Shown here piece by piece: positions 47,656 through 64,000 of a stretch of 64,000 nt of DNA. The stretch comes from an uncultured Oscillospiraceae bacterium (GTDB lineage Bacteria > Bacillota > Clostridia > Oscillospirales > Oscillospiraceae). The notes under the pieces are model-generated. The model did not search any database. It worked only from the letters and a program-made list of their open reading frames with translations, and had not been told where the DNA came from. Location: assembly GCA_944387095.1 (NCBI GenBank), contig CALXDP010000007.1, positions 1 to 64,000 on the forward strand. Reading direction: 5' to 3'. The translations under genes were made by a program, and so were the position numbers. The stretch's first letter is position 1. Each line of letters opens with the position of its first letter.

Positions 47656-47693
47656 AACTTATACTTCTTTCAAAACGGCGGGAGGCAGCAGTG

Positions 47694-49397
47694 ATGAAAT
47701 TCCACGAAATGCCCTATGAGCGCCCTGACCTGGAGACGGTCAAGGCTGCCTTGTCGGATTATATCGAAAAATTGCGGAATGCCGCCAGCTACCAGCAGGC
47801 CAAGGCAGTCTTTCTGGAGCTTGAAAAGTACAATGAACATGTGGGCACTATGGGGACTCTGGCCCACATCCGCCACTCCATTGACACCCGGGACGAATTC
47901 TACGACGGGGAGGAGAAGTTCTGGAACTCCGCCGGGCCGGAGCTCCAGGAGTATGGCCAGGCCTGGACCCAGGCGATGCTGAACTCTCCCTTCCGCAAGG
48001 ACTTTGAGGCGGAGTACGGCGAGCTGATGTTCGTCAACGCGGAGATCGAGCTGAAGACCTTCTCCCCGGAGATTATTCCCCAGCTTCAGCAGGAGAACGA
48101 GTTGACCCAGGAGTATGAAAAGCTGCTGGCCTCTGCCCAGATCCCCTTTGAGGGCGGGGTGTATACCCTATCCCAGCTTACCCCTTTCAAAAACGACCCG
48201 GACGACGCCCGCCGCCTGGCTGCCTGGAAGGCGGAGGGCCGGTGGTACAAGGACAACCAGGAGAAGCTGGACGCCATCTACGATCAGCTGGTCCACCTGC
48301 GGGACGAGATGGGCCGCAAGCTGGGCTATGAGGGGTATACCACCCTGGGCTATTACCGCATGGGCCGCAACTGCTACACCAAGCAGGATGTGGAGAAGTT
48401 CCGCGCCGCGGTGGTAAAATACCTGGTGCCCGTGGCCGACAAGGTCTACCGCAAGCAGGCCCAGCGCCTGGGTAAGGACTATCCCATGAGCTTTGCCGAC
48501 AACGCCCTGGAGTTCCGATCCGGCAACCCCAAGCCCGTGGGTACCCCGGAGGACATCCTGTCCCAGGGGAAAAAGTTCTACGACGAGCTCTCCCCCGAGA
48601 CCAGCGTGTTCTTCCGCACCATGCTGGACAATGAGCTGCTGGACGTGCTGTCCACCGAGGGCAAGCAGTCCGGTGGCTATTGCACCGGCATCCGGGAGTA
48701 CAAGGTCCCCTTTATTTTCGCCAACTTCAACGGCACCCAAGGGGACGTGGAGGTGGTCACCCATGAGGCGGGCCACGCCTTCGCCTATTGGACCAACCGG
48801 GACCGGGTGCCGGGAGAGTACACCTGGCCCTCCATGGAGGCCTGCGAGGTCCACTCCATGTCCATGGAGTTCTTTGCCGAGCCCTGGGCGGATGGCTTCT
48901 TCGGCCCGGACGCCCGCAAGTTCCTGTACAGCCACCTGGCCGGCGCGCTGACCTTCATCCCCTACGGTACTATGGTGGACCACTTCCAGCACGAGGTGTA
49001 CGCCAACCCGGACATGACCCCTGCCCAGCGCCACGCCATGTGGAAAGAGCTGCTGGGAGTGTATATGCCCTGGATGCGCCTGGACGGGGACATCCCCTTC
49101 TACAGCGAAGGGGAGGGCTGGCAGCGCCAGCACCACATTTACTCCAGCCCCTTCTACTATATCGACTACTGTCTGGCCCAGACCGTGTCCCTCCAGTTCT
49201 GGGCCCTGATCCAGAAGGACCGGAAGGACGCCTGGGACCACTACATGGCCTACACCCGCCAGGGAGGGAGCCGCACCTTTACCGAGCTTCTGCGGAACGC
49301 CGGGCTGGAATCTCCCTTTGATGAGAGCTGCCTGCGGGGGGTGTGCCAGGCGGCCAGCGCCTGGCTGGACGGTTTCGATTTGACGGGTATCACTTAA
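47694..49397 (+). CDS. M3-family oligoendopeptidase (PepF-like)
   Basis: 567-aa cytosolic zinc oligopeptidase. The zinc motif is VVTHEAGHAFAYW (HExxH), with the downstream Glu in MEACEVHSMSMEFF. The length and the C-terminal motif HHIYSSPFYYIDYCLAQTV match clostridial M3 oligoendopeptidase F proteins. ATG 47694 is preferred over GTG 47691 because GGGAGG is then eight bases away. It lies directly upstream of the peptide importer locus. Confidence 0.93.
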   Translation: MKFHEMPYERPDLETVKAALSDYIEKLRNAASYQQAKAVFLELEKYNEHVGTMGTLAHIRHSIDTRDEFYDGEEKFWNSAGPELQEYGQAWTQAMLNSPFRKDFEAEYGELMFVNAEIELKTFSPEIIPQLQQENELTQEYEKLLASAQIPFEGGVYTLSQLTPFKNDPDDARRLAAWKAEGRWYKDNQEKLDAIYDQLVHLRDEMGRKLGYEGYTTLGYYRMGRNCYTKQDVEKFRAAVVKYLVPVADKVYRKQAQRLGKDYPMSFADNALEFRSGNPKPVGTPEDILSQGKKFYDELSPETSVFFRTMLDNELLDVLSTEGKQSGGYCTGIREYKVPFIFANFNGTQGDVEVVTHEAGHAFAYWTNRDRVPGEYTWPSMEACEVHSMSMEFFAEPWADGFFGPDARKFLYSHLAGALTFIPYGTMVDHFQHEVYANPDMTPAQRHAMWKELLGVYMPWMRLDGDIPFYSEGEGWQRQHHIYSSPFYYIDYCLAQTVSLQFWALIQKDRKDAWDHYMAYTRQGGSRTFTELLRNAGLESPFDESCLRGVCQAASAWLDGFDLTGIT

Positions 49398-49794: not shown

Positions 49795-52305
49795 ATGAAA
49801 AAGCTTGTGGCTTTGCTGCTGGCTCTGGTCATGTGCGTCGGTCTGCTGGCCGGCTGTACCAACACTGGAACCGACAGCAGCGAAAACCCCAGCTCCGGGA
49901 CCACCGGCGAAGGTGTCAGCTACACCTATCGGGACTATTCCGAAGCTTTGGGCACCAACTGGAGCTCCCACACCTGGGAGACCAACGCAGACAGCAGCAT
50001 CATGGGTTACATCACCACCCAGATGGTCACCATGATGCCTCTGGACACCGAGAATGGCGTATACCAGTGGGTGTATGAGATGGCCACCTCCGTCACCGAC
50101 GTGACCGCTGACCATCAGGATGACCTGACCAAGTACAGCGTCACCCTTCCCGCAGGCACTGCCGCTGAGGATGTGACCGAGGGCTACGTGTACGAGGTCA
50201 CCCTGAACGAAGAGGCCGCCTGGCAGGATGGCACCCCCATCAACGCCGACACCTACATCTACTCCATGCAGCAGCTGCTCAACCCGGACATGAAGAACTA
50301 CCGGGCTAACCTGGTGTACAGCGGGGAGGGCGCCCTGGCCGGAGCCAACGCCTACTATAACTCCGGCAGCCCCATTTACAATCCTCTGGTTCCCGCCTAT
50401 GGCGAGGGAGAGACTCCCGATTACTCCTATGATCTGGAGCAGGGGATTGCCGACGGGCAGGTTTATATCAACGTCACTGCGACCAATATGACCCTGTACA
50501 ACGACAGCCTGAGCAACCTGAACTCCATGGTTGGCGCTGGCCTTGACGATCAGATTAGTGCCCTGGCTGAGGCCGCCGACGCCTACGGCTACACCCTGGT
50601 GACCGCCGAGAACCGTGAGACCGTGGAGACCGTGGTCAACACCATCCTGTCCGCTGGATTTGGGATCACCGATCCCACTGAGCAGGCCAACTACCTGAAG
50701 GAGGCCCTGTTCTACAACGATGGCTCCATGTCTGAAGTTCTGAACTATGACGATACCGTGGGCCTGTACAAGGTGGACGATTACACCCTGCGCTACGTCA
50801 CCCAGGCCTACATTGACCTGAACAACTTCATGACCTTCCTGGGCGACGGCTACCTGGTCTACGAGGAGACGTATGAGGCCGGCAAGGATACCTCCGGCAC
50901 CCTGGTGACCACCGACTACGGCACCAGCGTGGATACCACCATGTCCTTTGGCCCCTATATTCTGGAGTCCTATCAGGCCGACCGCCAGATGGTCTTTACC
51001 CGCAACGAGAACTGGTACGGTTGGGAGGATGAGCGCAACGAAGATGGCAACCTGGTATCCTACACCCCCTATGAGGTGGACGGCGAAAACGTAGAGCGCT
51101 GGCAGGCCACCAGCATTGTGGTCGACGTCATGGACGATAACACCGCCATGCAGGCCTTCCTCAGCGGCGATCTGAGCTCTTGGCGCCCCACTGCCGAGGA
51201 GCTGCCCAACTACACAACCTCCACCCAGCTGTTCCAGCAGCAGGAGAGCTATACCATGTCCTTCTTCTTCAACACTGATGTGGCGGCCCTGCAGACCATG
51301 GACGTGTCCGGTGGCAACACCAACAGCGTGGTGCTGTCCAACGAGAACTTCCGCCGTGCCATGAGTCTGGCCATCAACCGGGATGAGTATGTCACCGCTA
51401 CGCCTGGCTATGTGGCGGCTTACTCTCTGATGAACGACATGTACTACTATGACCCCTACAACGACCCCACCTCCAATTACCGTCATTCTGATGCCGCCAT
51501 GCAGGCCATCTGCAATCTGTACGGCGTGGAGTACGGCGAAGGCACTCCCTACGCCACCCTGGAGGACGCCTATAACTCCATCAACGGCTACAACCTTACC
51601 GAGGCCCAGGCCCTGATGGCCCAGGCCTGTGATGAGCTGGTGGAGGCCGGGCTGTACACCGAGGGCGAGGACATCTACATCCGTGTCGCCTGGGCGGCTG
51701 GCTCTCTTGCCGATCCGGACAACAACCAGGTGGCCCTGCTCAACGAGATGCTCAACGCCGCTTTGGAGGGCTCCGGCTTTGGCTCCCTCACTCTGGAGGC
51801 CGTGGGCAACCTGGAGAACCGCTATGCGGACGTACCCGCCGGCACTTATGCCATCGGCTACGGCGCCTGGGGCGGTGCTTACTTCTATCCCTTCCGCAAC
51901 ATGCAGGTCTACTGCGACCCCGACCAGTACGCGGTCAACGAGTTGGGCTGCTGGGATCCCACCACAGAGACCCTGACCCTCACCGTGGACGGCGAGGAGT
52001 ACACCATGACCTGGCAGGATTGGTCTAACTCCATGATCGGCGCCGGTCAGTTTGCCACCGCCTCCAACGAGACCAAGCTGCAGATCACCGCTCTGCTGGA
52101 GGAGGAGTATCTGAACAAGTTCTACCGCATCCCCCTGTGCGGCACCACTATTTGTGAGATGCTGTCCTACCAGGTGCGGTACATCACCGAGAACTACAAC
52201 GTCATGTACGGCTTCGGCGGTCTTGAGCTGATGAATTTCCTGTACAGCGACGCTGAGTGGGAAGCTGAAGTATCTGCGCAGGGTGGCAACCTGAGCTACG
52301 AGTAA
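49795..52305 (+). CDS. Oligopeptide ABC transporter substrate-binding lipoprotein, enlarged
   Basis: 836 aa. Lipoprotein signal (KKLVALLLALVMCVGLLAGC, Cys 20), a short Ser/Thr linker, then a family 5 (DppA/OppA) solute-binding fold: the typical phrases VYEVTLNEEAAWQDGTPINADTY, GPYILESYQADRQMVF and ENFRRAMSLAINRDEYV are spread along it. Family members are usually about 500-600 aa; here extra segments of roughly 250 aa are spread through the central part. Ribosome binding site AGGAGGAAAGAAC. First gene of the operon; a hairpin (52342-52374) follows it. Confidence 0.9.
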   Translation: MKKLVALLLALVMCVGLLAGCTNTGTDSSENPSSGTTGEGVSYTYRDYSEALGTNWSSHTWETNADSSIMGYITTQMVTMMPLDTENGVYQWVYEMATSVTDVTADHQDDLTKYSVTLPAGTAAEDVTEGYVYEVTLNEEAAWQDGTPINADTYIYSMQQLLNPDMKNYRANLVYSGEGALAGANAYYNSGSPIYNPLVPAYGEGETPDYSYDLEQGIADGQVYINVTATNMTLYNDSLSNLNSMVGAGLDDQISALAEAADAYGYTLVTAENRETVETVVNTILSAGFGITDPTEQANYLKEALFYNDGSMSEVLNYDDTVGLYKVDDYTLRYVTQAYIDLNNFMTFLGDGYLVYEETYEAGKDTSGTLVTTDYGTSVDTTMSFGPYILESYQADRQMVFTRNENWYGWEDERNEDGNLVSYTPYEVDGENVERWQATSIVVDVMDDNTAMQAFLSGDLSSWRPTAEELPNYTTSTQLFQQQESYTMSFFFNTDVAALQTMDVSGGNTNSVVLSNENFRRAMSLAINRDEYVTATPGYVAAYSLMNDMYYYDPYNDPTSNYRHSDAAMQAICNLYGVEYGEGTPYATLEDAYNSINGYNLTEAQALMAQACDELVEAGLYTEGEDIYIRVAWAAGSLADPDNNQVALLNEMLNAALEGSGFGSLTLEAVGNLENRYADVPAGTYAIGYGAWGGAYFYPFRNMQVYCDPDQYAVNELGCWDPTTETLTLTVDGEEYTMTWQDWSNSMIGAGQFATASNETKLQITALLEEEYLNKFYRIPLCGTTICEMLSYQVRYITENYNVMYGFGGLELMNFLYSDAEWEAEVSAQGGNLSYE

Positions 52306-52341
52306 GAAAGAAATATCGCAGAGCCGAACCAAATCAGTCTA

Positions 52342-52374
52342 CCGGGCAGGGGAGGGGCTCCCTCCTCTGCCCGG
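52342..52374 (+). other. Intra-operon hairpin after the binding-protein gene
   Basis: CCGGGCAG-GGGAGG pairs with CCTCCTCTGCCCGG around a short loop (52342-52374), with only a weak TTTT 10 bases later. Such a stem behind a binding-protein gene usually stabilises the upstream message or partly terminates, giving more binding protein than permease. Confidence 0.6.
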
Positions 52375-52452
52375 CGCGGCTTTTCCCCCGGCGGGTCTTG
52401 ATCACATTCGGCTCCAATGAGAATTTGCGGAGGCCGAAAAGGAGACGAGTCT

Positions 52453-53415
52453 ATGGCCAAATATGTGCTGAAACGGATCTTGCTGATGATCCTCACCTTC
52501 TTCGTCATCGTGACGATATGCTTCATGCTCATCCGGCTGCTGCCCCGGGAGCTGCCCATGGAGGAAAATCTCCGGGAAGTGATGTTGGCCCGGTTTGAGG
52601 CGCTGGGTTATAACGAACCGCTACTGGTGCAGTTCGGCATCTATCTGAAAAATATCTTTACCAACTGGGACTTTGGCACCTCTTGGTATGTGCAGTTCCG
52701 GGCGGACGCCTGGGACGTGCTTATGGACCGTCTGTGGCCTACCGTGCTAGTCAACTTCTACTCCTTCCTAGTGTCGGTCCCTCTGGGGCTGGCCCTGGGG
52801 ATCTATGCCGCAGTTCGCAAGAACAAGTGGCAGGACCATCTCATCAGCACTCTGGTGATGGTATTCGTTTCCGTGCCGTCCTATGTATATGGATTTCTGG
52901 TGCAGTATTTTCTGTACTTCAAGGCGGGCCTGTTCCCGCTGACGGTGTCCTCCCTGGCGGACGCCGGAGGGTCCTGGTTTACCTGGACCATGTTTTATAG
53001 TATGATTCCCCCCATCATTGCGCTCTCCTTCGGGCAGATTGCCGGCCTGTGCCGGTTCACTCGGGCGGAGCTGACAGAGACTTTGACTTCCGACTATATG
53101 CTGCTGGCGCGTACCAAGGGCCTGACCAGGAGCCAGGCAACCACTCGCCACGCGCTGAAAAACGCCATGGTGCCCATCCTACCCATGATCATTTCCACTT
53201 TCATTTCGATCCTGGCGGGCTCTATGGTCATTGAACAAATTTTCGCAATTCCCGGTGTCGGACAGCTCTACATCCGGTCCATTAATCTGTTGGACTATGA
53301 TGTGTTCATGATGGACACGGTGTTCTACGTGTTCGTGGGCCTGCTGGCCGGCATCGTTGTGGATATCAGCTACGGATTCATTGATCCGCGTATCAGAATG
53401 GGGAAGAAGAAATGA
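52453..53415 (+). CDS. Oligopeptide ABC transporter permease (OppB/DppB-type)
   Basis: 320-aa inner-membrane permease of normal length with six hydrophobic segments. The EAA loop is present (LARTKGLTRSQATTRHALKNAMVPI). The start at 52453 is chosen for AGGAGACGAG upstream. Overlaps the second permease by four bases (ATGA). Confidence 0.93.
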   Translation: MAKYVLKRILLMILTFFVIVTICFMLIRLLPRELPMEENLREVMLARFEALGYNEPLLVQFGIYLKNIFTNWDFGTSWYVQFRADAWDVLMDRLWPTVLVNFYSFLVSVPLGLALGIYAAVRKNKWQDHLISTLVMVFVSVPSYVYGFLVQYFLYFKAGLFPLTVSSLADAGGSWFTWTMFYSMIPPIIALSFGQIAGLCRFTRAELTETLTSDYMLLARTKGLTRSQATTRHALKNAMVPILPMIISTFISILAGSMVIEQIFAIPGVGQLYIRSINLLDYDVFMMDTVFYVFVGLLAGIVVDISYGFIDPRIRMGKKK

Positions 53416-54992
53416 AGAATACGACTGAATTTACTCACATCCCCAAGGACATGTTTGAGTTTGTCAACCACGGGGAACGGATTTCTGACAAGAAGTTCGA
53501 GGACAAGCCCATCGGCTACTTCAAGGACGCCTGGATCCGCTTCTGCAAGAACAAGGCGTCCATCGTGGCTGCTGTCATCATCCTGTGTATCCTGGCGTTT
53601 GCCTTTATCGCGCCTCTGGCCATTACTACCCACAACGCCACTTTCATGGACACCTACTACTCCCGCAAGCCCCCCCGCAACGAGCTGCTGAGCAACATCG
53701 GTATTGCCGACGGTGGCACCAACCGGGACTTCTCCGAGCAGGGTATCGTCAAGGCCGTCGCCGTGGGCATGGGCGCCGAGGACCACGATGGCTCCGGCAC
53801 TGTGACTCTGGAGGAGGGCATGGCCAGTGAGTACCAGCCCATTCTGGACATCATGGGCAGCCGTGAGGTCAGCGAGATCCGGGGCGTTCCCCCCAGAACC
53901 ATTTACAGCGCCAGGATTGAGAACTACCTGGAAGTGGGCTTTCTGTACCTGAGCATTCCCCAGTCCCAGTACTATCAGATTTTGGAGTGGCAGGAGGAGA
54001 CCGGCCTGCAGGTCCTCTATCCTCTGATTGCCAACAACGAGTACACTATGGATGCGGCTGACGCCAACTACTGGTACAAGATGGATAGCCGGGGCAATCC
54101 CGTGCGCACCACCGCCGGCGAGGCGGAGGTCATCGAGTACGCCGAGGGTATGGTGCTGGAGGACAACTACAGGCGGGATGAGAATGGCAACCCGGTTTAC
54201 TACGAGTACACCGGCGGCGGCAACCATGAGACCGCTCAGTTCCGGGTGCGGGTGCTGTACTACAACTATTATCAGTACCGCAACGGCTTCACCCCCCAAT
54301 ACCTGCTTGGCACCGACAGCCAGGGCTATGACCTGACCCTGCGTCTGGCCGACGGTATCAAGTTGTCTGTGCTGCTGGCCATCTGCGTGTCCGCCATCAA
54401 CCTGGTCATCGGCGCCATTTACGGCGCGGTGGAGGGTTACTACGGCGGCGCGGTGGATATGGTGATGGAACGCATCGTGGACGTGCTGGCCAACGTGCCC
54501 TTTGTGGTGGTGGCCACCCTGTTTCAGATGCATCTGGCTACCAGGGTGGGGGCCATCCCAAGCCTCTTGTTTGCCTTCGTGCTCACGGGGTGGATCTCCA
54601 CCGCTGCCCGTACCCGCACCCAGTTCTACCGATTCAAGGGGCAGGAGTACGTGCTGGCGGCCCGCACCCTGGGTGCCCGGGACCGGCGGATCATCTGGAA
54701 GCATATCTTCCCCAACTCCCTGGGCACCATCATTACTGCAAGTGCCCTGGTTATTCCCGGTGTCATCAACACCGAGAGCATGCTCAGCTACCTGGGCATC
54801 GTCAAGCTGAACACCTCTTCCGTGACCTCCCTGGGCAACCTGCTGGCGTCCGCCAGCAGCATCTGGACCAGCTATCCCCACCTGATGCTGTTTCCGGCCA
54901 TCGTGATTTCGCTGCTGATGATCTGCTTTAACCTGTTCGGCAACGGTCTGCGCGACGCGTTCAACCCGTCGCTGCGCGGTGTGGAGGAGTGA
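53412..54992 (+). CDS. Oligopeptide ABC transporter permease (OppC/DppC-type) with large extracytoplasmic insert
   Basis: 526 aa against about 300 for the family. Cytoplasmic N-terminus, first membrane segment about 50-72, then about 225 residues outside the membrane before the conserved LLGTDSQGYDLTLRLADG (normally GTDxxGRD) and the remaining five segments; EAA loop AARTLGARDRRIIWKHIFPN. The insert is Tyr/Glu/Asn-rich and contains an EF-hand-like loop, DHDGSGTVTLEE (residues 124-135, ligands at positions 1, 3, 5, 7, 9, 12). It probably contacts the enlarged binding protein (inference). Confidence 0.9.
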   Translation: MKNTTEFTHIPKDMFEFVNHGERISDKKFEDKPIGYFKDAWIRFCKNKASIVAAVIILCILAFAFIAPLAITTHNATFMDTYYSRKPPRNELLSNIGIADGGTNRDFSEQGIVKAVAVGMGAEDHDGSGTVTLEEGMASEYQPILDIMGSREVSEIRGVPPRTIYSARIENYLEVGFLYLSIPQSQYYQILEWQEETGLQVLYPLIANNEYTMDAADANYWYKMDSRGNPVRTTAGEAEVIEYAEGMVLEDNYRRDENGNPVYYEYTGGGNHETAQFRVRVLYYNYYQYRNGFTPQYLLGTDSQGYDLTLRLADGIKLSVLLAICVSAINLVIGAIYGAVEGYYGGAVDMVMERIVDVLANVPFVVVATLFQMHLATRVGAIPSLLFAFVLTGWISTAARTRTQFYRFKGQEYVLAARTLGARDRRIIWKHIFPNSLGTIITASALVIPGVINTESMLSYLGIVKLNTSSVTSLGNLLASASSIWTSYPHLMLFPAIVISLLMICFNLFGNGLRDAFNPSLRGVEE

Positions 54993-54996
54993 GCGT

Positions 54997-57183
54997 ATGA
55001 GTGAAGTTTTGGAAGTAAAAAACTTAAAAATCTCCTTCCGCACCGCCAGCGGCACCTTGAAGGCGGTACGGGATATCTCCTTCACCCTGGAAAAAGGAAA
55101 GACGCTGGCCATTGTGGGCGAGTCCGGCTCCGGTAAGTCGGTAACCTCCAAGGCCATCCTGGGCATCTTGGCTGGCAACTCCATTGTGGAGGGCGGGGAA
55201 ATCATCTATGACGGCAAGGATTTGCTGCGCATTCCCGAGGAGGAGATGTGCAAGATCCGGGGGGACCGGATCTCCATGATCTTCCAGGATCCTCTGTCTT
55301 CCCTGAACCCCATTGTGAAGATCGGCAAGCAGATCACCGAGGCCATGCTGCTCAAAAATAAGGGCAACCGCCGTGCCGCCCGGAAGGACTTCAACACCAT
55401 GCTGGCCACCCTGAAGGAGCATATGATTGCCGCCCAGGGGGAGCAGAGCAAGACAAAGGTGGAAGAGCTGATTGGGACCTTCGACAAGTTCAACATCGAG
55501 GCCATCAAGCTGGAGAACAGTTACAATGACGCGCTGCATGTGGCGGAGGAAGCGGTGTCCAAGATCGAGGACTTTCTGTTCAAGGCCGGCAGGCGCAAGG
55601 TGGACGTCAAAGGCGCGCTGAAGGAGTTTGCCGGAAAGGTGAAGCGGGTCCAGGATCCTTTTCTTACCCATGGCTTCGACTCCCGCCTGAGCCAGGCGTC
55701 GGCGGACTTGGAGCGGGTGCAGAGCAATTATCACGCACCCTCCGGGCACAAAAAGGATGGGGATGACGTACAACCCCTGCCCGAGGAGATCGAGCGCGTG
55801 CTGAACCAGACCAAGGAGCTGCTGGGGGAGCTGCTGGGCCGCACCCGCCCGGATTTCTTCCGCATCGGCTACTATAAGCTGAAAAACCCCGGTGAGGATT
55901 TGAGCGGAAAGCCGGTGGATCAGCTCAATGAGATGGCCCTGCGCTATCTGAACGACAACTTCATGTTGGAATTCATCGGCATTGAGACTGAGGCGGTGGC
56001 CCATTCCTACCACACGGCCCTGGAGAAGAAAAAGGCAGTGCTGGAACAGCTGGCCAGGGCCAAGGAGTTTTATGCCAAGGGCGGCTTTGACAAAGCCTCC
56101 GCCCGGAAGCAGTGCAGGGAGATCTCAGACCAGGTGGAAAAGACCATTGACCGTCTGGAGATTGTGAAGGACAGCACAGCTTACACCTTCCGCACCAGCC
56201 TGTCCGGCGCCATTGACAAGTACTTTGCCGCCAAGGCAAAAAACCCCAAGGAGGAGGCCCGCTTTGCCAAACAGAGCAAGAAGCGGGACACCCTCATTGC
56301 CAAGGGCAAGAACGTGGACTGGAAGGTCGTGCCCAAGGTGGTCTACGACCTGGATGAACTGAAGGCGGATATCGTCCAGGTGTTTGACCGCTTGATCCAG
56401 CATTACAACGAGTATATCGCCCAGGAATCCCAGGTGGATTTCCGGGCCAGGAGCATCGAACTGGTGGATTACTTCAAGGCGAAGGCCTCCGAGGTGGTCT
56501 ACAAGGTCACCAAAAGCATGGCCAAGGAAAAGGCGATCCAGCTCATGGAGGAAGTGGGCATTCCAGAACCCCGGGTGCGCTACTACCAGTATCCCTTTGA
56601 GTTTTCTGGCGGTATGCGCCAGCGTATTGTGATCGCCATCGCACTGGCGGCCAACCCGGATATCCTGATCTGTGACGAGCCCACCACCGCACTGGACGTG
56701 ACCATCCAGGCGCAGATCCTGGAACTGATCAACCGGCTGAAAGAGGAGCGGAACCTGTCTGTCATCTTCATCACCCATGATTTGGGCGTGGTGGCCAACA
56801 TGGCCGACGACATCGCGGTCATGTACGCCGGAAAGATCGTGGAGTACGGTACGGCGGACGATGTGTTCTATGATCCCAGGCACCCCTATACCTGGGCGCT
56901 GCTGTCCTCTATGCCCGACCTGGACACCAAGGAGAAGCTGGACGCCATTCCCGGCACGCCGCCCAATATGATCTATCCCCCGGAGGGCGACGCCTTTGCC
57001 GACCGGAACAAGTATGCCATGAAGATTGACTTCGTTCAGCAGCCGCCCCAGTTCCAGGTATCTCCCACCCACTGGGCGGCGACCTGGCTGCTTCATCCCG
57101 ACGCTCCAAAGGTGGAGCCGCCTAAGATTATCACAGACCGCATTGAGCGGATGCTGAAGAAGGCTGGAGGTGGACAGGCATGA
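54997..57183 (+). CDS. Oligopeptide ABC transporter ATPase (OppD/DppD-type) with ~390-aa helical insert
   Basis: 728 aa against about 330-350. Walker A GESGSGKS (41-48) and Q-loop MIFQDP (94-99) are normal. From about residue 121 to 510 an insert rich in Lys, Glu, Ala and Leu with long predicted helices replaces part of the helical subdomain. The standard domain resumes at [20 protein letters not shown], with signature FSGGMRQR, Walker [13 protein letters not shown] and the OppD C-terminal motif. All ATPase motifs are intact, so it should be active. ATG 54997; overlaps oppF by four bases. Confidence 0.92.
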
Positions 57184-58397
57184 GCAATCAAGACAATCAG
57201 GAGGTATTGCTCAAGGTTGAGCACCTGTGCCAGTACTTCAAGATGGGCGACTCCGAGCTGAAGGCTGTGGATGACGTCAGCTTCGACATCAAGCGGGGCG
57301 AGGTGTTTGGCCTGGTGGGTGAGTCGGGCTGCGGCAAGACCACCACGGGCCGCTCCATTATCAAGATTTACGATATTACCTCCGGCAGCATCTACTTCAA
57401 GGGCCAGCGCATCTGCGCGGGCACCCGCAGCTACCGGGACGCGATTGCCAGCGCCCGAAAGGAACTGAAAAAGCTGGGCCCCAACGACACGGCCAGGAAG
57501 GCGGAGCTGGAGAAGCGCATCGAGGCCAACCGGGAGGAGATCCGCAAGGCCCGGTATGACCACAGGCACTCCGATCAGGAGTACGCCCAGACCCTGGTGG
57601 ACAAACTGGAAAAGGAGTACGCTTCCAAGCTGGAGGAGGCCAAGAACGATCCCCAAAAGCTGGCCGAGGTGAAGAAGGAATATCAGGAGCAGCTGCGCAT
57701 TGCCAAAAAGACCAAACTGATCACCCAGATCCAGATGATTTTCCAGGATCCCATCGCCTCTCTGGATCCCCGCATGACCGTGCGGGAGACCATTGCCGAG
57801 GGCCTGGTGATCAACGGCATCCGGGATAAGGAGTACATTGATGAAAAGGTGTACGAGATCCTGGAGCTGGTGGGTCTGGTGCGGGAGCATGCCGGGCGCT
57901 ACCCCCACGAGTTTTCCGGTGGCCAGCGGCAGCGCATCGGCATTGCCCGGGCGGTCATCATGCGCCCCGATCTGCTCATTGCCGACGAGCCCATCTCCGC
58001 CCTGGATGTGTCCATCCAGGCCCAGGTCATCAACCTGCTCAATGAACTGCGCACCCGGTTGGGACTGACCATCCTGTTCATTGCCCACGACCTGTCGGTG
58101 GTCAAGTATTTCTCCGATCGAATCGGAGTGATGTACTTTGGCAAGATGGTGGAGCTGGCCCCCTCGGATGAACTGTTCGCCCATCCCCTGCATCCCTATA
58201 CCCGCTCTTTGCTGTCTGCCATCCCGCTGCCTGACCCCCGGTCGGAGAAAAAGCGGGTGCGGATCACCTACAATTCCCTGGCTGAGCACGATTACAGCGT
58301 AGATAAGCCCTCCATGCGGGAGATCCTCCCAGGGCACTTTGTGTATTGCAATAATGCGGAGGAGCTCAAGTATAAGAAGGAACTGGGACTGCTGTGA
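57180..58397 (+). CDS. Oligopeptide ABC transporter ATPase (OppF/DppF-type) with ~100-aa helical insert
   Basis: 405 aa. Walker A GESGCGKT (48-55). A charged coiled-coil-like insert spans about residues 80-178 ([37 protein letters not shown]), placed before the Q-loop ([14 protein letters not shown]), unlike its partner, where the insert follows the Q-loop. Signature [10 protein letters not shown], Walker [13 protein letters not shown] and the C-terminal [12 protein letters not shown] motif are normal. The stop overlaps the next start (GTGA). Confidence 0.92.
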
Positions 58398-58810
58398 ACG
58401 GGAAGAAGCTGCGCAATACGATATTAAAGTACGGCATTACCCTGGCGGTGGGGGCGGTCATGGCCTATGCGATGATGGAGCTGCATGGGCTGTGGGAGGC
58501 CGATGGGGCGGCGGAGCGCTACAAGATCCTGTGCGACGCGTTTACCATCCCGGGCGTGGTATTGGCGCTGAGCGCGGTGCTGGTGTTTGTGTCCAATGAA
58601 GGGATCTTTCATGGCATCACCTATGCGCTGACCTATGCGGTACGCATGCTGATTCCAGGCGCTGCCCATAAGGGTGAGCGCTATGGCGACTATGTGGAGC
58701 GTAAGCGGGAAAAAGGACCCATCAAGCATTTTGGATTTTTGGTCATTACAGGGGCCTTTTACCTGGCGCTGGCCCTGGTCTTTATGGTTCTTTTCTATAC
58801 CACACGGTAA
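58394..58810 (+). CDS. DUF3899-type membrane protein
   Basis: 138 aa with three to four hydrophobic segments (ILKYGITLAVGAVMAYAM, IPGVVLALSAVLVFVSNEG, FGFLVITGAFYLALALVFMV). VFVSNEGIFHGITYAL and DYVERKREK match the DUF3899 family, often last in clostridial operons. Begins with GTG overlapping the oppF stop, so co-expressed with the importer. Function unknown. Confidence 0.85.
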   Translation: MNGKKLRNTILKYGITLAVGAVMAYAMMELHGLWEADGAAERYKILCDAFTIPGVVLALSAVLVFVSNEGIFHGITYALTYAVRMLIPGAAHKGERYGDYVERKREKGPIKHFGFLVITGAFYLALALVFMVLFYTTR

Positions 58811-59745: not shown

Positions 59746-60912
59746 TCAGCGCAGGGAGGCAAATCGGATGTCACAGCCGCCCAGCAGGGGCAGGCAGTAG
59801 TCCTGAAACTCCGGCCGGATGCTGGCCCCGTCCGCCCCGATCCACTCCAGGGGGAACTTCTTCTCTGCATTGGCCACCTGCTCCAAGGGGATGAGGCAAG
59901 TCTCGCAATGGTACACTGGAGACCGGGCGGCTTCAAAGCCCACCATATAGCCGGTCTTGCCCTCCACGGCGGCGCGCGCCGCTGCGGCTCCGGCCTCCTC
60001 CGCCTCCTGACGGTCCACCGGGGAGGTGAGGGCCACGCTCACCCGGCCCAGCAGACCAGGCTTCTCCGCCCGGGATTTCAGGCTGGTCTCCGCCATAATC
60101 AGGTCAGACAGGGCCTGGGCCGCGCCGCCGGGGATCTTGTGGCCGAAGCCGTCCACCCGGCCGGTGTCGGCCACCGGGGTGCCGTCGGCGTAGTGGATGC
60201 CCTCGGACACGGTGACCAGCAGGCCCCTGCCCCTGGCCCATTTCTCCTGGACGGCGGACAGAAAGGCTTGCCTGTCAAAGTCGGTCTCAGGCAGGTAGAC
60301 CAGGTGCTCACAGGGCATCCGGTCGGCGAAGAGGGCGGAGGCGGCGGTGATCCACCCGGCGTTGCGGCCCATAAGTTCCATCACCACCACATGGATGGGC
60401 AGGGCGGAGGCGTCCAGGGCCAGTTCCAGGGCGGACACGGCGGCGTACTTGGCCGCGCTGCCAAAGCCGGGGCAGTGGTCGGTCACCGCCAGGTCGTTGT
60501 CCATGGTCTTAGGGATGCCCATGACCCGCAGTTCGTAGCCGGACTGGCAGGCCAGCTGGTAGACCTTGTGGCAGGTGTCCATGGAATCGTTGCCGCCGTT
60601 GTAGAAGAAGTAGCGGATGTTGAACTGTTTGAAGCACTCCAGCACCGCCGGATAGTCCCTGTCGGTGAGCTTGCGCCGGCAGGAGCCCAGGGCGGAGGCG
60701 GGGGTGCGGGAGAGCAGGTCCAGCTGTTCCTGGCTGACCTGCCCCAGATCCATGAGGTCCCCGGCCAGGATGCCCTCGGCGCCGAACCGGGCGCCGTAGA
60801 TGGTTTCGATCTCGCCGTGGCGTCTGGCCTCCCGAACCGCCCCCAGCAGGGAGCTGTTGATCACTGCGGTGGGGCCGCCGCCATGGGCGATGAGCATATT
60901 TCCTCTCAGCAT
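59746..60912 (-). CDS. 6-phosphofructokinase family protein, PPi-type
   Basis: 388 aa. Features: N-terminal IAHGGGPTAVINSSL, the phosphate donor loop YNGGNDSMDTCHK, and the catalytic GIPKTMDNDLAVTDHCPGFGSA, then MELMGRNAGWITAA. ATP-dependent enzymes have GGDGS and PPi-dependent ones GGDDS with a following PKT Lys; here the loop reads GGNDS with the PKT Lys present, so PPi use is likely but the Asp to Asn change is unusual. The substrate may be a sugar phosphate other than fructose 6-phosphate, given the neighbours. Confidence 0.85.
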   Translation of the reverse strand: MLRGNMLIAHGGGPTAVINSSLLGAVREARRHGEIETIYGARFGAEGILAGDLMDLGQVSQEQLDLLSRTPASALGSCRRKLTDRDYPAVLECFKQFNIRYFFYNGGNDSMDTCHKVYQLACQSGYELRVMGIPKTMDNDLAVTDHCPGFGSAAKYAAVSALELALDASALPIHVVVMELMGRNAGWITAASALFADRMPCEHLVYLPETDFDRQAFLSAVQEKWARGRGLLVTVSEGIHYADGTPVADTGRVDGFGHKIPGGAAQALSDLIMAETSLKSRAEKPGLLGRVSVALTSPVDRQEAEEAGAAAARAAVEGKTGYMVGFEAARSPVYHCETCLIPLEQVANAEKKFPLEWIGADGASIRPEFQDYCLPLLGGCDIRFASLR

Positions 60913-60927
60913 AGCGCCTGCCCCCTC

Positions 60928-62388
60928 TCACACCGTGGAAAGATCGTCGTCCTTCCTGCACAGGTGGACGGCGCCCAGCTTGAAGGTCTGGGGCAGGGCC
61001 AGAATATTGGGATTGGGGCCCACGAACTTGCGCTTGGCGTCCTCCAGGGCCTCCTCGAAGGTGGCCCGGGTCTTCAGGCCCATTCCCCGGGCGATGCCCG
61101 GCTCCTGGGCGCCCACGATGTAGATGGCGGCGGTGTTCATCTCGGCGATGTGGCCGCAGCTCATCATGGAAAAGCCGTGGAAGGGATGGAAGGCGTTGCA
61201 GAAGCGGTACTTGCGGATATACTCCTCATGGGTGGCGAAGTACTCCCCGTACCGGTCCATGTCGGGCAGGATGTTCATATAGTCGTGCTGGAACAGCTCA
61301 TACAACTCCCGGAGGTAGGGCCAGCGCTCGTCATGGAAATAGCCGTTGCAGATGGACGAGCAGAGGATGACGCAGTTTTCCTTCATCACCCGCTTGTGGC
61401 GGATGACCTGGGCGGACAGTGCCTGCATCATCTGGATGGGGTTGGTGCCCATACCGTCGCCATAGTGGAAGTCCTGGGGCATGCCGAACACCATCACGTC
61501 AAACTTCTCCTCCGCCCAGGGCACGTAGGTACGCCGGTTGGCCACCTTCCAGGACTCGGGCTGCATCACCTTGGCGTAGCCGCTGAAGATGGCGATCTGC
61601 CGGGAGTGGGTGTCCAGCACCGCGTCGCAGCAGAAGAAGGGGTGGCCCATCTTCTCCTCCATGTGCATGCCGATCTCGTCAAACTTGGTGCGCATGAGGG
61701 AGTGGCCGGACACGGGGGTGAAGTCCTCCCGGTGCATTACCTTGGGCACATGGTGGCTGGCGATGCTCCGCCAGTGGGTGATGCCGGTGGAACAGTGCTT
61801 GTAGCCCCCGGAGTAGCCCCCATAGGGGTTGCCCTGGGTATGGCCGATGAGGATGGGGATGTCGCAGTCAAAGACGTACTTGTTCATCAGCACCGGGTCG
61901 CCCCGCTGGGTGGTACCAAGGTCCACCATGTGGTTGTAGTCCTCGCTGTCGTGGCTGGTGATCTGATTGGTCCAGTAGAACTCGTTGAACAGCTCCTGGC
62001 CCAAAATCTTCTTCATCTCGGGCACGGTGGCCCGGGGATGCAGACCGTTGGAGAACAGCAGCAGGATGTCCTTTTTGTCCACCCCGGCTTCATACAGCTC
62101 ATCCAGGCAGGCCCGGATGGACACCCGGCGGTGGGCGGTGGGCTGGGTGCCCCCCTTGACAATGTCGGGGATGACGAACACCACCGTCTTGCCCGGGCCG
62201 GCCAGCTCCTTCAGGGGCTTCATGCCCAGGGGGTGGCGGATGGACTCCAGGGTGGCGGCGTACAGGCTGTCCCAGTCCTGGGGCAGGCAGGGGGGATCGG
62301 GCACGGTCTGGCCGGGGATAAAGACCTTGGTGCTGTCGGGCAGCTGGGCGCTCATCAGACCATGGCCGTATTCAAACGAGAGATTCAT
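60928..62388 (-). CDS. LarA-like nickel-pincer-nucleotide racemase/epimerase
   Basis: 486 aa, larger than lactate racemase LarA (about 425). Conserved points: GGTQPTAHRRV (substrate/nucleotide loop), NGLHPRAT (His117), HTQGN (His183), GGYSGGYKHCSTGI with Lys197 at the place of the pincer-bearing Lys, and SHH at 211-213. LarA homologues interconvert 2-hydroxy acids; several act on sugar acids. Flanked by aldolase, TIM and PFK genes, a sugar-acid epimerase is the best guess. The NPN cofactor makers LarB, LarC and LarE are not in the window. Confidence 0.8.
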   Translation of the reverse strand: MNLSFEYGHGLMSAQLPDSTKVFIPGQTVPDPPCLPQDWDSLYAATLESIRHPLGMKPLKELAGPGKTVVFVIPDIVKGGTQPTAHRRVSIRACLDELYEAGVDKKDILLLFSNGLHPRATVPEMKKILGQELFNEFYWTNQITSHDSEDYNHMVDLGTTQRGDPVLMNKYVFDCDIPILIGHTQGNPYGGYSGGYKHCSTGITHWRSIASHHVPKVMHREDFTPVSGHSLMRTKFDEIGMHMEEKMGHPFFCCDAVLDTHSRQIAIFSGYAKVMQPESWKVANRRTYVPWAEEKFDVMVFGMPQDFHYGDGMGTNPIQMMQALSAQVIRHKRVMKENCVILCSSICNGYFHDERWPYLRELYELFQHDYMNILPDMDRYGEYFATHEEYIRKYRFCNAFHPFHGFSMMSCGHIAEMNTAAIYIVGAQEPGIARGMGLKTRATFEEALEDAKRKFVGPNPNILALPQTFKLGAVHLCRKDDDLSTV

Positions 62389-62399
62389 GGCTTTTCTCC

Positions 62400-63236
62400 T
62401 TACTGTCCAAGATAGGTGCGGATGATCTCCAGGTACTCCTCAGGGTAGAATCCGATCTCCCCCTGGAATCGGGTCAGGGCGATGAGACCGCCGTCGATCT
62501 CGTTGATAGAGGCCAGCATTTCGGCGTTGTCTACTTTCAACCCGCCGCCGTATACCACGGGGAGGCCTCCGGTCCGCTCCTTGACGAACCGGGCGATCCT
62601 GGTGATGTAGTCCCGGCCCGCCGGGGTTTTGCCCGGGCCGATGGACCACACCGGCTCGTAACCGATGACCACCTTGGCGGTGTCCACTCCATCTAAACCC
62701 ACACGGAGCTGATCGCCCAGCACCTGCTGCCAGTTGTCCTGCTCCTCGCTTTTTTCTCCGATGCAGTAGAGAACGGTCAGTCCCTGCTCCACCGCCTGGC
62801 GGATCTCCTGGTTCAGGATGCGGTTGACCGCGGCGGTATCGGTGATACCGGCCTCGGCCAGGATGCCCGCTTTGTCATTGCGCTCCTCGCAGTGGCCGAT
62901 GAGGGCGGAGGTACACCCCATGGCCTTTGCGATGGAGGCGGGACGGTTGGTGGTGAGGGCGCCGAAATTACCCCCCACCGCGGTGTTCACCCGGTATACC
63001 CCCTGACAGCCCACCTGGACGGGGCTGCCCTCGCACAGGGCGTCCACAGCACCCAGGATGTGGGCCTCGGGGAAATACTGGATAAACTCCACCTGGCTGG
63101 GGTCGTACTTCTTCAGCCCCTCCTGGGTATTCTTCACGATATGGCCGCCCCAGTCCTTCAAGGGGGCGATACGGTTGACGCCGCCGTACTCTACGGGCAC
63201 GTCAAACCGCTTCAGATTCAGATACAGATGCTTCAC
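62400..63236 (-). CDS. Triosephosphate isomerase-like protein
   Basis: 278 aa, slightly longer than the usual 250. TIM catalytic residues are recognisable: Asn/Lys in LNLKRFDVP, His in LIGHCEERN, Glu in VIGYEPVWSIG, the flexible loop GPGKTPAG and the phosphate motif VVYGGGLKVDNA. The canonical NWKM is changed to NLKR, and the phosphate-binding GGxS reads GGGL. Paralogues of TIM act on erythrulose phosphate and other tetroses or ketoses; the operon suggests such a role. Confidence 0.85.
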   Translation of the reverse strand: MKHLYLNLKRFDVPVEYGGVNRIAPLKDWGGHIVKNTQEGLKKYDPSQVEFIQYFPEAHILGAVDALCEGSPVQVGCQGVYRVNTAVGGNFGALTTNRPASIAKAMGCTSALIGHCEERNDKAGILAEAGITDTAAVNRILNQEIRQAVEQGLTVLYCIGEKSEEQDNWQQVLGDQLRVGLDGVDTAKVVIGYEPVWSIGPGKTPAGRDYITRIARFVKERTGGLPVVYGGGLKVDNAEMLASINEIDGGLIALTRFQGEIGFYPEEYLEIIRTYLGQ

Positions 63237-63248
63237 GTCCGGACCTCC

Positions 63249-64000
63249 TCACTTCTTGTAGAAGGCGATCATGTCCTCCAGGGATTTCTGCTCGACCAGG
63301 GGGGCCTTGCCGTAGGAGCCGAAATGGACGATCAGGGAGCCCACGGCCTCCTTTACGCCCGCCTCCACCCGGCTCATGAGCAGGGCCACGTCGCCGTCAG
63401 GCACGTTGCCGGTGAGAACGGTGTCCATGATGGGCGGGAAGAACACCCGGGGGTCGAAGGCGGAGCGCTTCTCCCCCAGCAGGGCGTACACCCCGCCGAT
63501 GGAGGGGCTGTTTTGCAGCGCGGGTTGCTGGGCGAATAGCTCCTTCATGTTTCGGGTGACCGCCAGGCGGATGTCAGTGTCCACGTTGATCTTCCGGATG
63601 CCGCAGGGGATGGCGGCGATGAGCTCGTCCACATGGATGCCATAGGCGTTCTGAAGGTCGCCCCCCAGGTCGTTGATCTCCTGGACAATGTATTGGGGCA
63701 CGGTAGAGGAGCCGTGGGACACCAGGGCGCAGAAGATGCCAAGGCGGTTGATGCACTCCTTGATGGCGATGGGGATCTCCCGGCGCAGCCTGGCGTTCTT
63801 GCCCTTGTTGGCCCCGTGCTGGGTGCCGTAGGAGATGGCCAGGGCATCCACCTCGGTCTCCTGGATGAAACGCACCGCATCCAGGGGGTTTGTATAGGTG
63901 GAGGTGGCGGCGAACACATGGTCCTCCTGGCCGCCCAGCACGCCCAGCTCGCCCTCCACGGACACGCCCCGGGCGTGGGCATACTTCACCACCTCCCGGG
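63249..64000 (-). CDS. Class II (zinc) ketose-bisphosphate aldolase, 5' end outside the window
   Basis: About 249 C-terminal residues are visible; the frame runs off the right edge. Motifs: VEGELGVLGGQEDHVFA, VDALAISYGTQHGANKG (zinc His), FCALVSHGSSTVP (usual HGGSG-type) and INVDTDIRLAVTRN. It cleaves a ketose phosphate into triose phosphates or hydroxy-aldehydes in this family. It is the first of the five visible co-directional genes with TIM, LarA-like, PFK and TSUP. More genes probably precede it beyond the window. Confidence 0.9.
   Translation of the reverse strand, partial: REVVKYAHARGVSVEGELGVLGGQEDHVFAATSTYTNPLDAVRFIQETEVDALAISYGTQHGANKGKNARLRREIPIAIKECINRLGIFCALVSHGSSTVPQYIVQEINDLGGDLQNAYGIHVDELIAAIPCGIRKINVDTDIRLAVTRNMKELFAQQPALQNSPSIGGVYALLGEKRSAFDPRVFFPPIMDTVLTGNVPDGDVALLMSRVEAGVKEAVGSLIVHFGSYGKAPLVEQKSLEDMIAFYKK

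Follow-up and report, generated by a model that had tools for sequence, protein, structure and literature searches.

A 64,000-nucleotide stretch of DNA from an uncultured Oscillospiraceae bacterium (contig CALXDP010000007.1 of assembly GCA_944387095.1; hereafter the window) carries five consecutive genes, oppA, oppB, oppC, oppD and oppF, whose products by the features tested form an ATP-binding cassette (ABC) importer of the Opp/Dpp type (Table 1). Peptides are its predicted substrate, given a complete set of Pfam domains beside a gene for an M3-family peptidase. OppA bears a lipoprotein-like signal (LLAGC in the translation) and matches the family 5 binding-protein profile at 121.2 bits (cut-off 32.4), in two pieces (50173–50319, profile positions 13–61, and 50722–51921, profile positions 61–363). 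Both permeases are of the MetI type, with OppC_N on OppC only, and both ATPases end in an oligo_HPY tail. The motifs that we take to be the Walker A, Q-loop, signature, Walker B and H-loop are all readable in OppD and OppF, so that an earlier sequence-only reading of the window was right in calling the catalytic motifs intact, as it was about the five genes and their sizes. It had also described four of the five subunits as enlarged. This holds for OppA, OppC and OppD; the enlargement of OppF is modest and the least stable of the four. An alternative GTG start at 54979 would lengthen OppD to 734 amino acids (aa). Proteins of ordinary size are encoded by the same genome (2.03 Mb, 62 contigs), namely three other PF00496 proteins (open frames of 523–590 aa) and an OppD/OppF pair (345 and 343 aa).

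Table 1. The opp operon, its inserts and adjoining features (positions in the window; TM1, first transmembrane segment; ORF, open reading frame).
Feature	Position	Strand	Size	Evidence or remark
M3-family peptidase gene, upstream of oppA	47691..49397	+		PF01432
oppA, binding protein	49795..52305	+	836 aa	ORF; PF00496
OppA extra segment, residues ~176-310	50320..50724	+	~134 residues	PF00496 match interrupted there
oppA-oppB gap	52306..52452	+	147 nt	holds 15-bp G+C-rich hairpin
oppB, permease of ordinary size	52453..53415	+	320 aa	PF00528, PF19300
oppC, enlarged permease	53412..54992	+	526 aa	PF12911 (OppC_N), PF00528
OppC insert, residues 77-292, between TM1 and the GTDxxGxD motif	53640..54287	+	~215 aa	alignment, model, lengths
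oppD, enlarged ATPase	54997..57183	+	728 aa	PF00005, PF08352
OppD insert, residues 121-500, Q-loop to signature (site 2), helical subdomain	55357..56496	+	~380 aa	alignment, model, lengths
oppF, modestly enlarged ATPase	57180..58397	+	405 aa	PF00005, PF08352
OppF insert, residues 83-178, Walker A to Q-loop (site 1)	57426..57713	+	~90 aa	length varies among relatives
DUF3899 gene, small putative membrane protein	58394..58810	+	138 aa	PF13038; adjoins oppF in relatives

The sequence-only reading took these genes for one uninterrupted, co-translated operon. From oppB onward this stands: oppB/oppC, oppD/oppF and oppF/DUF3899 overlap by 4 nt and oppC and oppD are spaced by 4 nt. The DUF3899 gene is a sixth member that the earlier description had missed. 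The gap and its hairpin set oppA apart from oppB, so that co-translation does not extend to OppA. The hairpin has a z score of −2.37, with equal stability reached in 2 of 200 shuffles, and could protect or over-express the oppA message.

How widespread is this arrangement? In a scan of one genome per species, at least 516 relatives aligned to OppC, and the best 80 of them were retained as relatives in a clade that we call type L (this name, like type 2 and type M below, was coined in this analysis). These 80 come from Clostridia, Bacilli and one Treponema (Treponema putidum). We examined 88 loci, a set that may hold repeats (L007 and L070 are matching contigs of equal length); 19 were without a complete five-gene set, leaving 69 complete operons. 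OppA has at least 740 aa in 68 of the 69 and OppD at least 690 aa in 66, while OppC reaches at least 490 aa in all 69, the set having been selected by OppC. At least 370 aa of OppF were found in 54. Within type L, the enlarged OppA, OppC and OppD form a stable package, and the OppF insert is variable. Since the large sizes of these three proteins recur in 66–69 of the 69 complete operons, we rejected the idea that they are artefacts of start choice or frameshifts.

The two largest inserts also travel together. Across 391 genomes of the class, separate profiles of the OppC and OppD inserts hit an identical set of 7 (E 1e-8), with both matches on one contig and ~1.1–1.4 kb apart; one OppD match (G469) was partial. 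In the bacterium's own family, a match across nearly the whole of OppC was present in 5 of 120 genomes. Four other genomes of the same genus gave no OppD match at E 1e-65, and one of these four (G066) has a different Opp type behind the same M3 gene; the distribution of type L is therefore patchy. The clade as a whole is spread over many uncultured gut Clostridia.

Extra mass had been proposed to lie both outside the membrane (OppA, OppC) and inside it (OppD, OppF), and the positions of the inserts agree with this. The OppD insert is cytosolic; that of OppC would be extracellular, judging from its topology. AlphaFold predictions on isolated OppC and OppD chains gave an alpha/beta domain for the OppC insert, with predicted local distance difference test (pLDDT) values of 84–97 in blocks of ten residues, and an all-helical OppD insert whose longest helix spans 55 residues (blocks at 83–97, except one at 58 and one at 74). 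In type L, the length of the OppC insert is 197–233 aa in 72 of 72 proteins and that of the OppD insert 347–402 aa in 70 of 71, the remaining one having 200. Measured from motif to motif, site 2 of OppD spans 404–459 residues in 74 of 77 parsed type-L proteins, compared with 56–57 in 17 ordinary ones; the exceptions are 268 (L037) and 257 (L096), a third value of 223 (L131) being a mis-parse. Site 1 of OppF varies far more, from 17 to 244 in 73 parsed type-L proteins as against 15–37 in 18 ordinary ones. Among the type-L proteins, 4 OppD and 5 OppF could not be parsed; in type S these numbers were 4 and 3.

The inserts are less conserved than the cores that carry them, with mean pairwise identities of 0.39 versus 0.69 for OppC, 0.31 versus 0.76–0.80 for OppD and 0.33 versus 0.70–0.77 for OppF. 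Near-invariant residues are nevertheless present inside the OppC and OppD inserts, and the ratio of nonsynonymous to synonymous substitution rates (dN/dS) of all three inserts was 0.05–0.54, always below 1, in the close pairs tested, which were hand-picked and had dS above 1 in several cases. With their confident predicted folds, nearly fixed lengths and dN/dS below 1, the OppC and OppD inserts are thus not the disordered, unconserved segments that would have spoken against the earlier proposal. Sequence searches found no known relatives: an NCBIfam scan of the OppD and OppF inserts gave no match, and a Pfam scan gave none for the OppC insert and sub-cut-off matches only for the other two. In PDB profile searches nothing convincing appeared for the OppC insert (best E 0.59) or the OppD insert (best E 0.0011, to 8qae_A, presumably a designed coiled coil, going by its name). 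Whole-chain Foldseek searches with OppC and OppD returned pore and ATPase matches among the 50 matches listed per search.

Are the enlargements separable? Two further operon types from the same bacterial family, with homologous cores and a large OppA, show that they are. Type 2 (13 loci) combines an OppC of 516–718 aa with an OppD of normal or close to normal length that lacks the large insert (380–396 aa; 413 in L040), and its OppA measures 756–820 aa in the 12 loci where OppA is uncut. Type M (16 loci) is the converse, with an ordinary OppC of 319–329 aa, an OppD of 581–600 aa whose insert lies at site 1, and an OppA of 721–751 aa from the first ATG in 12 loci; OppA is cut in L165, was not found in L162 and L163, and has 963 aa in L171. 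The last frame (2831–5719 of L171), far longer than in other type-M loci, perhaps has an overlong start. At L160 (G181:C28, 2258–19776) one genome carries a type-M operon with a type-L operon directly after it. One locus (L053; OppC 517 aa, OppD 322 aa) fits neither type 2 nor type M. Across relatives, then, the enlargements occur separately; independent variation of the inserts is what the sequence-only reading had itself named as refuting its proposal.

A tree built from 91 rows of OppD cores explains each of type L, type M and type 2 by one change (Shimodaira–Hasegawa-like approximate likelihood-ratio supports 95, 92 and 99); the site-2 insert likewise takes one change and the OppC insert two. 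This was a quick tree holding about every second named type-L locus, with 8 rows without parsable motifs skipped and a program warning of long branches. The nearest row without inserts is L176 (OppA 631, OppC 379, OppD 354 and OppF 313 aa). To the extent that this tree can tell, the single origin of the OppD insert means that the co-occurrence of OppC and OppD inserts counts as one evolutionary event and not as repeated evidence of a requirement. The OppC inserts of type L and type 2 have no detectable sequence homology (hhalign probability 1.7), and we rejected the idea that they are homologous in sequence. Homology of the OppD site-2 insert to the type-M OppD insert or the type-L OppF insert was likewise rejected (0.2 and 0.7); the type-M OppD and type-L OppF inserts, compared with each other, gave a probability of 28 over 26 columns.

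Which subunits evolve together? Pairwise distances were corrected by regression for the divergence of OppB and of the OppC, OppD and OppF cores, and the residuals were compared. In 50 type-L loci, OppA and the OppC insert co-varied (partial r 0.53, permutation p 0.001), with values of −0.13 to 0.07 for the five remaining pairs. The partial r was 0.40 with quadratic terms and a DUF3899 control (42 loci), 0.41 in the near clade (33 loci) and 0.44 in the far clade (17 loci). The OppA–OppD insert pair stayed at −0.02 to −0.03 in four type-L runs, and in these runs the OppD insert was not coupled in rate to OppA or to either of the OppC and OppF inserts (OppD and OppF inserts in the far clade, 0.20, p 0.054). 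A small positive value linked the OppC and OppF inserts (0.19, p 0.018). In 12 type-2 operons, with only OppB and the OppC core regressed out, OppA again co-varied with the OppC insert (0.42, p 0.004; other five pairs, −0.47 to 0.28). Co-variation of OppA and the OppC insert in two lineages fits a docking platform outside the cell, a part of the sequence-only reading that our data favour.

We therefore consider it fairly probable that type L is a distinct and widespread Opp/Dpp importer, forming one clade, in which the OppC ectodomain is a receptor for OppA and the OppD insert is a separate arm. In this mechanism the enlarged lipoprotein OppA would catch peptides outside the cell and dock on the OppB/OppC pore, and OppD and OppF would hydrolyse ATP. 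The ~215-residue OppC domain after TM1 would stand outside the membrane as a dedicated OppA receptor, by analogy with MalF P2 and MalE. The ~380-residue helical OppD insert may form an arm in the cytosol, present on just one of the two ATPases, whose role would most probably be regulation or tethering. The OppF insert would be a variable elaboration. The DUF3899 membrane protein, encoded with the complex, is a candidate sixth subunit. The data support an extracellular docking module and not a single co-evolved assembly of five subunits.

Several points weigh against the OppC receptor. (i) Type M combines a large OppA with an insert-free OppC, so that OppA can be large in the absence of the OppC domain. 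(ii) The permutations behind every permutation p given here do not model phylogeny. (iii) For the extra segment of OppA (residues 176–310), coupling to the OppC insert was only 0.05 over the full set and 0.33 within the near clade; elsewhere in OppA most parts gave 0.23–0.52, the first part 0.35 and 0.08. (iv) OppA was also weakly coupled to the OppF insert in two runs (0.17, p 0.034; 0.15, p 0.036). (v) Exposure of both to the same external surroundings, or transfer of adjacent genes as a block, may by itself make OppA and the OppC insert co-vary.

Behind oppF, a hidden Markov model (HMM) trained on the type-L DUF3899 hits detects this gene in 69 of the 72 type-L operons that have room for it. 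BLAST matches exist for two of the three exceptions, L071 and L076, but for L134 there is none. The gene is also present in four further type-L loci (L172–L175) and, among 52 loci retrieved for other types, in one (L176), relatives being recorded in L067–L146 and L172–L176. PF13038 occurs in 7 of 120 genomes of the family, including 4 of the 5 genomes whose OppC is of type L. A literature search on DUF3899 found nothing. This near-constant neighbour thus appears to be a good, if unproven, candidate for a sixth subunit. A bolder version of our reading, in which an extracellular OppC receptor domain co-evolving with OppA arose at least twice independently and type L is a six-part machine with DUF3899 as a subunit and a one-sided helical OppD arm that controls or tethers the ATPases, is offered tentatively, and we would expect it to fail sooner than to hold.

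Could the inserts instead be neutral or lineage-specific elaborations, tolerated without a common function and co-inherited because whole operons are moved? The patchy distribution, the single origin of the OppD insert, the faster evolution of inserts than cores and the variable OppF insert would all suit such a history. We nevertheless regard it as unlikely: the lengths of the OppC and OppD inserts are nearly fixed, both contain near-invariant residues and fold confidently in prediction, dN/dS points to purifying selection, and OppA co-varies with the OppC insert in two lineages.

The sequence-only reading suggested that all four enlargements form one co-evolved machine, perhaps with a cytosolic stalk or ring around the ATPases and a platform outside. 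The joint occurrence of OppC and OppD inserts, side by side in the same genomes, and the large OppA, OppC and OppD of nearly every complete operon speak for this view. The lengths of OppD site 2 and OppF site 1 are also correlated, weakly and without phylogenetic correction (Spearman 0.35, p 0.004), and both loci with a short OppD insert, L037 and L096, have a short OppF insert as well (51 and 57). Against it, the co-occurrence goes back to a single appearance of the OppD insert, the parts are combined differently in types 2 and M, the OppD insert has no rate coupling to OppA or to the OppC and OppF inserts, and several operons place a short OppF insert beside a full OppD insert. A single larger assembly of this kind now seems quite improbable.

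That the system is simply a mycoplasma-type Opp importer, whose ATPases are the nearest enlarged case in the libraries searched (NCBIfam MMSYN1_0165 to 0168), is very improbable: MMSYN1_0167 and MMSYN1_0168 are the best NCBIfam matches of OppD and OppF (458.1 and 410.1 bits) and the OppF insert shares their site 1 (residues 7–78 and 182–208 corresponding to model positions 1–72 and 403–429), but both scores fall short of the curated cut-offs (740 and 800), the Q-loop at 302–338 of the 561-position OppD model puts the mycoplasma insert at site 1 instead of site 2, and the OppC model has 307 positions, the size of an insert-free OppC. Equivalence of the OppD insert to the mycoplasma insert was accordingly rejected on grounds of site.

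The E. coli OppBCDF and M. tuberculosis OppABCD structures (PDB 8z21, 8j5q–8j5t) share a homologous pore and ATPases and are the best PDB sequence and fold matches, yet have no counterpart of the OppC, OppD or OppF inserts (in 8z21, OppC has 302 and OppD 336 aa). OppB and OppC are closest in NCBIfam to the Firmicutes Opp3B and Opp3C, with 250.6 and 268.1 bits against cut-offs of 480 and 450, and the Opp3C model has 328 positions compared with 526 aa here; the importer thus scores below the cut-offs of each NCBIfam subtype considered. For the OppC insert, the useful comparison is the large periplasmic loop P2 of the permease MalF, which is reported to meet the binding protein MalE (PMC3150292). 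The OppC insert is large, external by topology and co-varying with OppA, and may make a comparable contact. The likeness is one of analogy: the insert has no significant sequence match among Pfam families and PDB chains and none to MalF P2 in these searches, and a MalF chain appears only at rank 42 of the 50 matches listed for whole-chain OppC in Foldseek (root-mean-square deviation 13.3). A literature search over titles and abstract openings found no description of this importer variant. T. denticola TDE1273, a lead from PMC3931704, gave no sequence link.

In type I importers, a central event is that the binding protein docks on the permease. OppC domains that lie in the same place, show no detectable homology and co-vary with OppA in two lineages make this step testable by deletions and swaps. 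For structural work, type L offers two predicted folded domains without a significant Pfam or PDB sequence match, together with its near-constant DUF3899 partner.

Genes for M3-family peptidases recur close to opp operons, both of type L and of type 2 and in one case of type M (L043–L045, L047–L049, L051, L103, L118, L126 and L171), so that different Opp types adjoin the same peptidase in related genomes; the M3 peptidase upstream of oppA is perhaps functionally linked to the importer. Beyond the opp operon, the minus strand of the window (59746–63992) carries genes for phosphofructokinase, a lactate-racemase-like protein, triosephosphate isomerase and a class II aldolase.

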